Positions 15,565-20,383 of a stretch of 34,297 nt of DNA are shown here, one piece after another. Origin of the DNA: Burkholderiaceae bacterium (lineage in GTDB: Bacteria > Pseudomonadota > Gammaproteobacteria > Burkholderiales > Burkholderiaceae_C); assembly GCA_030654805.1 (NCBI GenBank), contig JAURWR010000045.1, forward strand, positions 1 through 34,297, given 5' to 3'. The translations under genes and the position numbers were made by a program. How positions within the stretch are numbered: the stretch's first letter is position 1; every line of letters begins with the position of its first letter. The notes beneath the pieces were generated by a model. That model ran no database searches and had not been told where the DNA came from. It worked only from the letters and a program-made list of their open reading frames with translations.

Positions 15565-16371
15565 TTACAGAAGGATTCGGGCAAGCAGACCGTCTTCGAG
15601 CCACTGCCGCATGAAGCCGCCGATCAGCATCGACATGTCATCGTCGGTTCGGCCATCGCCGACTCGCTCTTCACCGACGGCGGCCTCGGCCTGGCTGCAG
15701 GCCGCCGCGAAGGGTGCCCCGTCCAGCATGGCCCGCAGCAGCGTCGCCTCGGCCCGATGCAGCGACCGGAAATGCGGTTGATGACCCTTGCGCCAAACGA
15801 CCCAGACGACGTCCATTTCCGACGCCTGCAGATCGGGCGGTGGCTGGTCGTCATCGAGCGCCTGCCACACCGCCACTGTGTTGTGCCGCAACGTCAGCAG
15901 TTGCGTCGTCGGCACCGGCACGAGGCTCAGCGTGGCCCAGGCCTCGGGAGGCAGTTCGGCGAACGCGCTCGCGTCGAGCACCGCCGAGTCGGGTCCGTCG
16001 AATGCGCCACGCAGCGCCCAGTCGAGACTGGCGAGTTCGGCCCATGCGCTCGACGCCGGGAGATCAGCACCGCCCGCCGCAAGATGCGCATCGAAACCAT
16101 CGCCGTACCAGCGCAGGCTGCGGGTCGTCGGCGGGTGCACCGCGATGTACGCCAGCGCGGCCGACTCGAAGGCAGCCTCGCCCATCACCGCGAGCGTCTT
16201 CTCGTACGAATCGATCAGCGTGTCGAGCAGCCGTTGCCGGTACGCATGGGCGTAGATGCGCAGGCCCAGCTGCTGTCGTTCGGGATCGCCCGCGATCAGC
16301 GGCAAGGCGTCGCCGACACCCAGCATGTGCTGCTGAAATTGCAGTTGCACCGACAGCAGCGACAAGCTCAC
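15565..16371 (-). CDS. bufC2: BufC2: DUF2063 (HvfC) family partner of the bufferin-modifying enzyme
   Basis: 268 aa. The N-terminal half is the DUF2063 domain: Q-x-x-F-Q-Q-H-M-L, [17 protein letters not shown], and [13 protein letters not shown], a helical domain that in characterised systems binds the DUF692 enzyme and the precursor. The C-terminal half is the variable alpha/beta domain with [13 protein letters not shown]. Its ATG overlaps the stop codon of bufB2 (16368-16371), so the two proteins are made together and probably form a complex. It is the last gene of this bufferin set. The symbol follows the published bufferin naming. Confidence 0.9.
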
Positions 16372-17237
16372 GCGGGGCTCCTGACCCGTTCAGGGGTGGC
16401 AGGTGCCAACGCCTTCGCATGAATCGACCTCGCGTGGTCGAGTTCGGCGACCAGTTCGGCCAGCGGCGGGATGTGGTCGTCGCGCTCGATCATCGTCGCC
16501 ACCGGGCCGACCCGCGCCAGCGCCTCGGCATACAGCGCCCACACCGGATCGGCCACCGGGTGATCGTGCGTGTCGACGATGTGATCGCCGTGATCGGAAT
16601 GGCCGGCCAGGTGGATCTGCTGCACCCGGTCGGCCGGGATGCCGCGCAGGAAGGCACGGGCGTCGAAGCCGGGGTTGACGCTGCTGACGTAGATGTTGTT
16701 CACGTCGAGCAGCAGGCGGCAGCCGGTGCGTTGGCAAACCTCGGTGATGAACTCCCACTCGGTCATCTCCGACGCCCGAAAGCTCACGTAGCTGGAGACG
16801 TTCTCAAGCACCAGCGGACGCTGGAGGACCTCCTGCGCGATGTGCACGTTGCGCACCACGACATCCAGCGCGGCATCGTTGTACGGCAGCGGATACAGGT
16901 CGTGCAGCACGCGACCGTGCACGCCGGTCCAGCACAGGTGATCGGAGATCCACAGCGGCTCGACGCGGCGCGCCAGCGCTGCCAGGGCGTCGAGGTAGGC
17001 ACGATCGGGACCGTCGGCGGCACCGATCGACAGCGCCACGCCGTGCATCACGACGGGATAGTGGGCACGAATCGCGTCCAGCATCGCCAGCGGCTTGCCG
17101 CCGGGCACCAGGTAGTTGTCGGACAGGATTTCGAGCCAGTCGACGCGCTGGGGTGACTCGATGAAATCGGGATAGTGCTGGGTGCGCAGACCCAGGCCGA
17201 AACCGGGGTTCATGACCCGAGACTGCGCAGCGCCCAT
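16368..17237 (-). CDS. bufB2: BufB2: DUF692 multinuclear non-heme iron oxygenase (MNIO)
   Basis: 289-aa TIM-barrel enzyme of the DUF692/MNIO family, which uses two or three iron ions and O2 to modify cysteines of a precursor peptide (to 5-thiooxazoles in known bufferins). Metal-binding motifs are intact: [54 protein letters not shown], and I-E-R-D-D-H-I-P near the C-terminus. It starts 15 bases after the bufA2 stop and overlaps bufC2 by ATGA. A second in-frame ATG (M-N-P-G-F) eight codons in is an alternative start. Confidence 0.94.
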
Positions 17238-17252
17238 GGAATCAGCCGACGA

Positions 17253-17534
17253 TCACAGATCGCCGATGGTGCCGCCGGACTTCAGGCACTCGGCCGCAGC
17301 CATGCCCTTGAAGCCATGGCCCTTGCAGCCGTTCTGGCCCTTGCACGAGTTCTCGCTGGTCTTGCAGTCCGAGTTGCCCTTGCAGCTGTGGACGCCGTAG
17401 CAGTGAACCTTGTCGCTGGCGGCAATGGCCTTGCCCGAGCTGCCGGCAGGTGCGTCGGCGGCGAATGCGGTGGCAGACAGCGCCAGGGCGGCAGCGGCGG
17501 AAGCGATTTGGAAACCTTTGGAAGCATTGAACAT
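17253..17534 (-). CDS. bufA2: BufA2: secreted Cys-rich bufferin precursor peptide
   Basis: 93 aa. Residues 1-25 are a Sec signal peptide ending A-T-A-F-A-A. The mature part is short, Gly/Lys-rich and holds six cysteines (45, 51, 57, 64, 70, 83), most in the repeating context C-K-G / C-K-T, with H-C-Y-G-V-H-S-C at the front. This is the pattern of BufA2-type bufferins, periplasmic copper-binding peptides whose cysteines are oxidised by the neighbouring MNIO. The ATG at 17532-17534 follows an AGGAG ribosome site (CAGGAGTTCTCC-ATG). It has its own promoter-like element at 17621-17647. The number of modified cysteines cannot be read from sequence. Confidence 0.92.
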   Translation of the reverse strand: MFNASKGFQIASAAAALALSATAFAADAPAGSSGKAIAASDKVHCYGVHSCKGNSDCKTSENSCKGQNGCKGHGFKGMAAAECLKSGGTIGDL

Positions 17535-17620
17535 GGAGAACTCCTGTGGATGGTGGGTTGGCACCTGCAGACATTGCAGGTTGTGGGCGGCGTGGGCCTG
17601 AATCCCAAGCACCCACCTCT

Positions 17621-17647
17621 GTCGGCGCCGATTCAAGGTCCTTACAC
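17621..17647 (-). promoter_or_regulatory. ECF-sigma-type promoter of bufA2
   Basis: On the minus strand GTGTAAGG, 14 bases, CCGAC (the CCGAC at 17625-17621). The same two boxes at exactly the same spacing precede bufA1. The element lies in the 146-base gap between doxX and bufA2 and ends 86 bases before the bufA2 ATG. A GTAAnn-type -35 with a CG-containing -10 is typical of ECF sigma factors, which control known bufferin genes. Confidence 0.7.
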
Positions 17648-17680
17648 CACCCTGGCCTCACATACGGAAGCAAACGCCAT

Positions 17681-19097: not shown

Positions 19098-19963
19098 CGG
19101 GGCACCCGCGCCAGGCGCTCGGTGGCTTGCCGTGCTTGTCCGAGCAGCACGTCCAGCGCCGGCACATCGGTGTCCCATTCGACAAGCGTCGGGACCGCGC
19201 CGAAGCGTTGCAAGGCGTGCTCGTACAGCGTCCAGACGGCGGGCCGCACCACGCTGCCGTGGTCGTCGATGACGATGTCCGGGGTCTCGCAATAGCCCGC
19301 GAGGTGAATCTCGCCGACGATGCCGCGTGGCAGCGAATCGATGAACGCACGGCCATGCGCGAGCGGATCGGCCACCCGATCGTTCAGCGCATTGACCATC
19401 AGGTTGTTGACATCGAGCAGCAGACCGCAGCCGGTGCGACGGCACAGTGCCGCAAGGAAGTCGGCCTCGGTCAGCGTGTTGTCATCGAAGGACAGATAGG
19501 CCGACAGGTTCTCGACCAGCAACGTCCGTTGCAGGCGATCCTGCACCCGACCGACGTTGTCGCAGAGGATGGCCAGCGAGGCGTCGGTGAAGGCGATCGG
19601 CAGCAGGTCGTTGGCATGCACCACCGCGCCGCCGACCTCAAGCGCAGCGCGAGCGAAGCAGGCGTGGTCGGACACGAAGGCCGGCTCGATGCGACGCACC
19701 AGGCGATCGAGGCGGTCGAGATGCCAGGGGTCGATGCCGGCTGCCGAGCCCAGCGCCAGGCCGACGCCATGCAGGCTGACCGGGTAACGCGCGCGGGCCT
19801 CGCCCAGCACCGCCAGAGCGGCACCGCCATCGGCGTAGAAGTTCTCGGAGTGAACCTCGACGAAACCGATGGCGGGCGGGTCCTCGATCACCTGCGCGTA
19901 ATGCGGCTGACGCAACCCGATCCCCGCGAGTTCGCGGCGAACCGGGGATGCGGCCACAGGCAC
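19094..19963 (-). CDS. bufB1: BufB1: DUF692 multinuclear non-heme iron oxygenase (MNIO)
   Basis: 289 aa, same family and length as BufB2 but clearly different in sequence. The start is G-I-G-L-R-Q-P-H-Y, then V-E-V-H-S-E-N-F-Y, V-S-L-H-G-V-G-L-A-L-G, F-V-S-D-H-A-C-F, V-E-N-L-S-A-Y, L-L-L-D-V-N-N-L-M-V-N, E-I-H-L-A-G-Y and V-E-W-D-T-D-V-P, covering all metal-ligand blocks. The first codon appears to be GTG (19961-19963); no good ribosome site precedes it, so translation may depend on coupling to the upstream peptide gene or start at the GTG two codons later. Overlaps bufC1 by ATGA. Confidence 0.94.
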   Translation of the reverse strand: MPVAASPVRRELAGIGLRQPHYAQVIEDPPAIGFVEVHSENFYADGGAALAVLGEARARYPVSLHGVGLALGSAAGIDPWHLDRLDRLVRRIEPAFVSDHACFARAALEVGGAVVHANDLLPIAFTDASLAILCDNVGRVQDRLQRTLLVENLSAYLSFDDNTLTEADFLAALCRRTGCGLLLDVNNLMVNALNDRVADPLAHGRAFIDSLPRGIVGEIHLAGYCETPDIVIDDHGSVVRPAVWTLYEHALQRFGAVPTLVEWDTDVPALDVLLGQARQATERLARVPR

Positions 19964-19981
19964 GAAGGAGGACCGGGGTCC

Positions 19982-20002
19982 GAGCGAGCGAGTGGCTCGC
20001 TC
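19982..20002 (-). repeat. Hairpin directly after the bufA1 stop codon
   Basis: A perfect 8-bp inverted repeat (GAGCGAGC, 5-base loop, GCTCGCTC) abuts the TAA of bufA1. It is not followed by a T run, so it is more likely an mRNA 3'-end stabiliser or partial terminator than a full stop. This would let the peptide be made in excess over the enzyme encoded next. Confidence 0.6.
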
Positions 20003-20290
20003 TTACTTCTTCATCATGGTCATGGCCTTCTTGGCGTCGTCGGCAGACTTGCCGCCGAGCGACGCGCAGGTGCCTTTGGCCACGTACTTCCACTCATCTG
20101 CGCCGTTGTCGGCCTTGGACTGGCCGGCGCACGAGTGCGTGCCCGACAAGTTGGCGCAATCGTTGGCGCCGGCCTTGGCGATGCCGAAGCATTTTTCCTT
20201 GGCCGGCGCATCGGCGGCGGAGGCGGTCGACAGCATGCCGAGCGCGAGCACGGAAGCCAGGGCGGACGAAGCGATGAGGCGGTGGTTCAT
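20003..20290 (-). CDS. bufA1: BufA1: secreted DUF2282-type bufferin precursor peptide
   Basis: 95 aa. Residues 1-25 are a Sec signal peptide ([15 protein letters not shown]). The mature part carries the DUF2282 pattern with four core cysteines (34, 45, 54, 75): [21 protein letters not shown], and [10 protein letters not shown]. In characterised BufA1 bufferins the two central cysteines become 5-thiooxazoles and the peptide chelates copper in the periplasm. The ATG at 20288-20290 follows CAGGAGATCCCC. First gene of the set, 66 bases after the promoter element, and separated from bufB1 by a hairpin. Confidence 0.93.
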
Positions 20291-20356
20291 GGGGATCTCC
20301 TGAATTGAGTGTGGATCGACTGCGGTGGCCGGACGTCCCGGCACGTGCCTGAATGA

Positions 20357-20383
20357 GTCGGACGAAATGATCGGCCCTTACAC
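20357..20383 (-). promoter_or_regulatory. ECF-sigma-type promoter of bufA1
   Basis: On the minus strand GTGTAAGG, 14 bases, CCGAC (CCGAC at 20361-20357). It lies in the 193-base gap between the antiporter gene and bufA1 and matches the element ahead of bufA2 in both boxes and in spacing, although the 14 bases between differ. That pattern is expected of a shared sigma-factor site rather than of duplicated DNA. Confidence 0.7.

Follow-up and report, generated by a model that had tools for sequence, protein, structure and literature searches.

Why does one bacterium keep two bufferin operons side by side, each with its own enzyme, and how are they controlled? This is the question raised by a stretch of 34,297 nucleotides from Burkholderiaceae bacterium (assembly GCA_030654805.1, contig JAURWR010000045.1), which we will call the window. 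It lies on contig C91 of a genome of 3.87 Mb, whose nearest named relatives are Burkholderiales. On its minus strand, in positions 15565-20290, we find bufA1, bufB1, bufC1, doxX, bufA2, bufB2 and bufC2 in that order, all seven present, and both operons are preceded by the same pattern, of the type associated with extracytoplasmic function (ECF) sigma factors. We consider it likely that they are two parallel periplasmic copper buffers, with matched enzymes and ECF-type promoters of their own, which would be switched on jointly by one envelope-stress sigma factor. Papers are cited by their PMC numbers, and what we say of them refers to extracts of their text.

Two bufferin operons in tandem

An initial annotation of this sequence had described two secreted cysteine-rich peptides, each with a DUF692 enzyme and an overlapping DUF2063 gene, all on one strand. 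Profile searches agree with this description for all seven genes. They are listed here with the two promoter patterns.

20357..20382, minus strand: buf1 ECF-type promoter pattern TGTAAG-N16-CGAC, exact match, starting 92 bases before the bufA1 start
20003..20290, minus strand: bufA1, DUF2282 bufferin precursor, 95 amino acids; PF10048, 82.9 bits
19094..19963, minus strand: bufB1, bufferin maturase of the MNIO family, presumed specificity site EWDT; PF05114, 302 bits; NCBIfam MNIO_BufB, 316
18240..19097, minus strand: bufC1, DUF2063 (PME-type 1) partner; PF09836, 52.3 bits
17681..18214, minus strand: doxX, last gene of buf1; PF07681, 62.5 bits; HvfX model, 55.6 bits, under its cut-off of 80
17621..17646, minus strand: buf2 ECF-type promoter pattern TGTAAG-N16-CGAC, exact match, starting 112 bases before the bufA2 start
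17253..17534, minus strand: bufA2, six-cysteine bufferin precursor, 93 amino acids; NCBIfam BufA2 NF050166, 104 bits (cut-off 60)
16368..17237, minus strand: bufB2, bufferin maturase of the MNIO family, presumed specificity site ERDD; PF05114, 366 bits; MNIO_BufB, 378
15565..16371, minus strand: bufC2, DUF2063 partner with a GTG start; PF09836, 56 bits

Both BufB1 and BufB2 exceed the MNIO_BufB cut-off, which is 310. The coordinates give an overlap of 4 bases between bufB and bufC in each set. The first set is a Buf1 bufferin operon: a DUF2282 precursor with a signal peptide and four cysteines, an MNIO and a DUF2063 partner are all present. The second is, from its sequence, a Buf2 operon, with a BufA2 precursor of six cysteines and an MNIO which has Asp at the presumed Cys-Lys site. 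By eye we find Sec-type signal peptides in both precursors, followed by the four and six cysteines that had been annotated. They are Cys 34, 45, 54 and 75 in BufA1 and Cys 45, 51, 57, 64, 70 and 83 in BufA2, where each of the inner four is followed by Lys. Profile searches of the whole genome give one DUF2282 match and one BufA2 match.

Families, gene order, signal peptides and cysteine counts are the same as for the bufferins of PMC12452194, where Buf1 (DUF2282) and Buf2 (6 or 12 cysteines) are accompanied by MNIO, PME-type 1 and DoxX proteins. The two operons are ordinary members of known families, and all their parts are known. The difference from PMC12452194 is that here both complete sets stand in tandem under one promoter pattern.

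A common promoter pattern

Throughout the 3.87 Mb genome TGTAAG-N16-CGAC occurs exactly three times. Two sites are those of the bufferin operons; the third has its start 58 bases ahead of a DUF1223 gene, whose product has a signal-peptide-like start and the motif GCSSCPP. The reversed control of the pattern has 9 sites. A longer form, TGTAAGG-N14-CCGAC, recovers the same three sites, with none for its control. No sigma-70 promoters were found in positions 15300-20700.

As a sequence pattern, a putative ECF-type promoter precedes each operon, so that one ECF sigma factor should switch on both. It had been noted at the outset that no CopA, CueO or ECF sigma gene is adjacent. Indeed no ECF gene adjoins the locus, and no CopA- or CueO-like gene was found among the 13 other open reading frames profiled, a subset of those in the window. 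Yet both operons carry the ECF-type pattern, and ECF control does not require that the ECF gene be a neighbour.

The mechanism that we propose is the following. Each operon would make a cysteine-rich peptide for Sec export. Before export, the iron enzyme BufB and its own DUF2063 partner BufC would convert the inner cysteines to thiooxazoles. In Buf1 modification affects the central pair of cysteines, and a disulphide joins the outer pair; thiooxazoles on the central cysteines and copper binding are described for Buf1 of C. vibrioides (PMC12452194). Two modified cysteines are expected in BufA1 and, by analogy with Buf1, probably four in BufA2, namely the inner ones flanked by the two outer cysteines. 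The exported peptide would then bind copper in the periplasm. Each operon would have its own ECF-type promoter, TGTAAG-N16-CGAC, with the -10 element extended to CGACNNA. Both bufferins and the secreted DUF1223 protein would be turned on by one ECF sigma factor, which a small anti-sigma factor of zinc-finger-like type probably restrains. The trigger may be copper or thiol-oxidising stress at the envelope.

A stable hairpin between bufA1 and bufB1 (19982-20002, z -2.5) was considered as a conserved attenuator and dropped, as it has no counterpart there in the relatives printed. It could limit expression of the enzyme.

Conservation of the pattern in related genomes

The pattern is also found before the bufferin genes of related species. 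For buf1 we have used 80 loci in named genomes, with 76 testable bufA1 upstream regions: TGTAAG-N15..17-CGAC is present in 35 of them, against a shuffle mean of 0.01. A survey of 399 genomes of the order has BufA2 over the cut-off in 46 and DUF2282 in 124. The bufA2 sample consists of 58 stretches; the window apart, they contain every BufA2 place over the cut-off, 63 in number. Of 63 bufA2 upstream regions tested, one of which belongs to a weak second match (27 bits, L250), the same form is present in 21, other families included (shuffle mean 0.04). Left out of the counts were three upstream stretches that did not exceed 150 bases (one bufA2, two bufA1) and the bufA1 of L058, which has no start codon.

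When the sites are aligned, the 16-base spacer varies and the ends are fixed. This is what a promoter would give; common descent alone would not. The searched pattern does not include position 28, where A is found in 93% of 27 distinct buf1 sites and in 80% of 20 buf2 sites. In the ten closest genomes (G001-G010, loci L021-L030), where a looser pattern was used, the motif stands before bufA1 in seven.

The sigma factor

Which factor could read the pattern? In 36 of the 80 buf1 loci of relatives an ECF gene is found upstream of bufA1 in divergent orientation, mostly close to it (at most about 2 kb). A small anti-sigma-like frame with HxxxCxxC, sorted by eye, follows 34 of these 36 genes. Examples of buf1 with an ECF gene beside it are found in Albitalea terrae, Rivibacter subsaxonicus and Methylibium rhizosphaerae. 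An ECF/anti-sigma pair is also found beside buf2 in the buf2-only loci L238 and L253 and in the mixed locus L220. In the genome of the window the nearest relative of these ECF proteins is on contig C78; it is at most 39.6% identical to them, and its partner is of the same anti-sigma type (49 bits). Two further sites may be mentioned here: one in L220, 47 bases before the start of the ECF domain, and one in L281, 71 bases before an anti-sigma frame. Control by an NrsF protein, as in Caulobacter, was rejected: the genome has no PF06532 match.

Several results weigh against joint control of both operons by one such factor. The strict form is absent from 41 of the 76 bufA1 and from 42 of the 63 bufA2 upstream regions; it stands before bufA1 in none of seven cases in the order-survey stretches, and three stretches from Cupriavidus and Paraburkholderia are also without it. 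In the genome of the window a 12-base form with one mismatch has 11 sites and its control 15, so that only the exact form is informative. A C78-like ECF is present in only one of the ten closest genomes, though seven have the motif before bufA1; in the other nine another ECF may read the motif, or the drafts may miss the gene. The idea of ECF autoregulation was abandoned: the motif was not found upstream of the C78 ECF gene, nor upstream of any of 37 ECF genes in the buf1 loci of relatives (the 36 beside buf1 and a C65-like one in L078), so that no autoregulation ties the sigma factor to the motif.

It is possible, if doubtful, that the motif is read by a sigma factor other than the C78-like type with a zinc-finger anti-sigma, for example a C65-like or a C100-like ECF. 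A C65-like ECF is found in seven of the ten closest genomes, and the best match is C100-like in the other three. Against this, anti-sigma partner or best match assigns to the C78 type both the ECF proteins that adjoin buf1 in the 36 loci and those that adjoin buf2 in L220, L238 and L253, and the meningococcal MseR-type promoter resembles the motif.

Other genes preceded by the pattern

Among 15 DUF1223 loci TGTAAG-N16-CGAC is upstream in five: our own, G026, G028, G037 and G055, the last from another family. The spacer is one base longer in G045 and G061, and G064 has CGTC instead; the motif is missing from 7 of the 15, among them G032 and G038. In the genus, represented by 15 genomes of which several are incomplete, BufA2 is over the cut-off in seven (only a fragment in G033) and DUF1223 is present in six. 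All six also have BufA2 (Fisher p 0.0014, kinship ignored). Among the open-access papers searched we found none that links DUF1223 with a sigma factor.

Other targets were surveyed in 20 chosen stretches, and 9 of the genes found there were profiled, one of them without a family. In G055 the exact motif is upstream of genes for MsrA, an MsrP-like molybdopterin oxidoreductase, CutA1 and a DM13 protein. It also precedes a gene for a DsbD N-terminal domain in G028, a catalase-family gene and a radical-SAM/DUF3641 gene in G037, a gene for a DoxX-like protein in G040, and in G033 a frame similar in appearance to the radical-SAM/DUF3641 gene. Of the stretches L265 and L268, one has the pattern starting at a distance of 79 bases from its radical-SAM/DUF3641 gene, and the other has it ahead of a similar frame. 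Control counts are above motif counts in most related genomes, so that several further sites, before genes without an evident link, may be due to chance.

One or two transcription units

The tandem might be a single transcription unit driven from the buf1 promoter, maintained because it allows read-through, with the buf2 motif left over as a relic. The genes are on the same strand with short gaps, and between doxX and bufA2 the minus strand has nothing that looks like a terminator. We nevertheless find this unlikely: the buf2 pattern is intact in both elements with the same spacing, and in other families the motif precedes bufA2 in stretches whose upstream part, as far as fetched, shows no buf1.

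Enzymes and precursors

BufB1 and BufB2 are 42% identical over 280 amino acids; BufC1 and BufC2 have no meaningful BLASTP similarity, though both match DUF2063. We have built a tree of 82 MNIO enzymes, 7 of which are unlabelled: the A1-labelled (32) and A2-labelled (43) enzymes are on opposite sides of one branch, with support 100/99. The labels of the 80 named loci (L028 included) are those of the best-matching query and not of the neighbour. A check of the neighbours, window included, gives 79 B1 enzymes beside bufA1 and 5 B2 enzymes beside bufA2, with no contradiction; two B1 enzymes (L028, L078) have neither precursor in view. BufB2 of the window clusters with BufB2 of the same tandem in four relatives. 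The separate clades bear out the earlier view that two subfamilies are co-located here, as opposed to a duplication.

A residue of the enzymes also follows the precursor. According to PMC13097082, Cys-Lys maturases have Asp where FonB has Phe, and this site is not conserved among DUF2282 maturases. We have located it by motif and not through an alignment with FonB itself: BufB1 has EWDT (Thr), BufB2 has ERDD (Asp) and the solved MNIO 3bww has ERDF. Among 80 enzymes with BufA1 just upstream, EWDT is found in 64 and EWDH in one, while 15 do not match the pattern. With BufA2 just upstream (45 enzymes) the counts are 38 for ERDD, two for ERDA, one for ERDE and four unmatched; 9 further enzymes had neither precursor in view. 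The constancy of Thr in the BufB1-type enzymes may stem from the taxonomically narrow set of BufA1. Judged from these residues, a pairing of each precursor with an enzyme of its own is supported. Of 69 BufA2 frames surveyed 39 have four Cys-Lys, 13 have three and two have two; 15 failed the cysteine pattern, several of them from the choice of an overlapping frame.

The initial annotation had gone one step further and suggested that the two peptides may cover different metals or copper levels. Its two complete sets, from different subfamilies and with their own enzymes, are confirmed; the suggestion itself is not, since no data here separate metals and the common promoter pattern speaks for induction of both at once and not apart. 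That the peptides divide the labour, each induced separately for its own metal or copper range, appears for this reason improbable, even if the two scaffolds are chemically different and, to judge from MerC fusions and from the gold-induced gig operons, some bufferins may serve other metals (PMC12452194).

Origin of the tandem

The same tandem is found in five other genomes of the genus, as far as their contigs reach, one of them read across two contig ends; it is not due to chance. Considering the window and its nine closest loci (L021-L029), five have the tandem: the window, L021, L023, L024 and L028. It was not found in L026 and L027, where several kilobases of sequence are visible, and a contig end interrupts the view in L022, L025 and L029. 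In L022 the buf2 motif is at the contig end and BufA2 opens another contig (G026). From their sequence and position we have paired G028, G032, G037 and G038 with L024, L021, L023 and L028, respectively. Of the six tandem genomes, five (our own, G026, G028, G032 and G037) carry the motif at both promoters; in G038 (L028) buf2 has no motif and bufA1 is off the contig.

Outside the genus, 6 of the 58 stretches (L217, L220, L224, L245, L248, L252) combine bufA1 and buf2 in arrangements that differ from this one. In L220 bufA2-B2-C2 is followed by bufA1-B1-C1-doxX, with an ECF gene alongside. Paraburkholderia has a lone bufA1 before a buf2 operon (L285), and bufA1 also precedes a buf2 operon in Cupriavidus (L284). 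The bufA1 of L285 has no annotated enzyme of its own, so that one BufB2 may serve two precursor types. A chance neighbourhood of two common operons is very improbable: both operon types are widespread, but the tandem is kept in six genomes of the genus, window included, in the same order up to the ends of the contigs, and mixed loci recur elsewhere.

The locus is flanked by a Na+/H+ antiporter-like gene, a DsbD_TM gene and a thioredoxin gene on one side and by a chemotaxis receptor gene on the other. The DsbD_TM and thioredoxin genes are upstream of the bufferin operons, in positions 21880-23014 of the minus strand.

Comparison with known systems

Among the open-access bufferin papers searched, judged by title and abstract opening, we found no description of a Buf1-Buf2 tandem or of a TGTAAG promoter. 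The extracts of PMC12452194 report sigma genes in Buf1 clusters and not in Buf2 clusters. Here, in contrast, buf2 has an ECF-type pattern, and three loci of relatives, the buf2-only L238 and L253 and the mixed L220, do have an adjoining ECF/anti-sigma pair.

Control of two bufferin-type operons by one ECF factor is already known in Caulobacter, where sigma-F drives two such operons and a YedY/MsrP gene from GTAACC-N16-CGAA (PMC3511200) and its regulon is induced by copper (PMC8224329). The presence of two operons is common to both cases. The differences are that the Caulobacter operons are apart, the anti-sigma factor is NrsF/DUF1109 and the promoter sequence is another one; moreover, both precursors were annotated as DUF2282, one of them later as hypothetical (PMC3511200, PMC8224329).

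The promoter of meningococcal sigma-E resembles ours: GTMAGBWTT, 12-13 bases and CGTCTAAH (PMC2893595). The span from GTAAG to CG is 21-22 bases for Neisseria sigma-E/MseR and 21 here; the -10 element is CGTC there and CGAC here. Its anti-sigma factor is of the zinc type and msrA/msrB is a target. The genes for sigma and anti-sigma share an operon with a DoxX-like gene, unlike here (PMC2893595).

Finally, the gigPABT-rpoQ-rsqA genes of Cupriavidus metallidurans resemble the buf1 loci by a precursor with four cysteines and a divergent ECF/anti-sigma pair, and are induced by copper and gold; they differ in that the predicted anti-sigma factor is membrane-bound (PMC10304878). In the extracts of that paper no promoter is identified and control by RpoQ is only assumed.

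Significance

The tandem is a natural pair of two enzymes and two substrates in one cell, in which the specificity site can be probed. A promoter defined by its sequence and common to both bufferin families makes their control testable by a simple reporter assay.

We would tentatively extend our conclusions to the Burkholderiales: it is quite conceivable that in this order both of the chemically distinct bufferin families, along with the periplasmic repair of thiols and methionine (DUF1223, DsbD, MsrA, MsrP-like, CutA), are driven by a single ECF/zinc-finger anti-sigma system that is related to Neisseria sigma-E/MseR. If this is true, TGTAAG-N16-CGACNNA would be the missing promoter of the gig-type operons. 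The other targets of the motif suggest that copper buffering and periplasmic thiol repair form one response. A conserved regulon for thiol stress at the envelope, defined by this promoter, would then include copper buffering as one of its arms.

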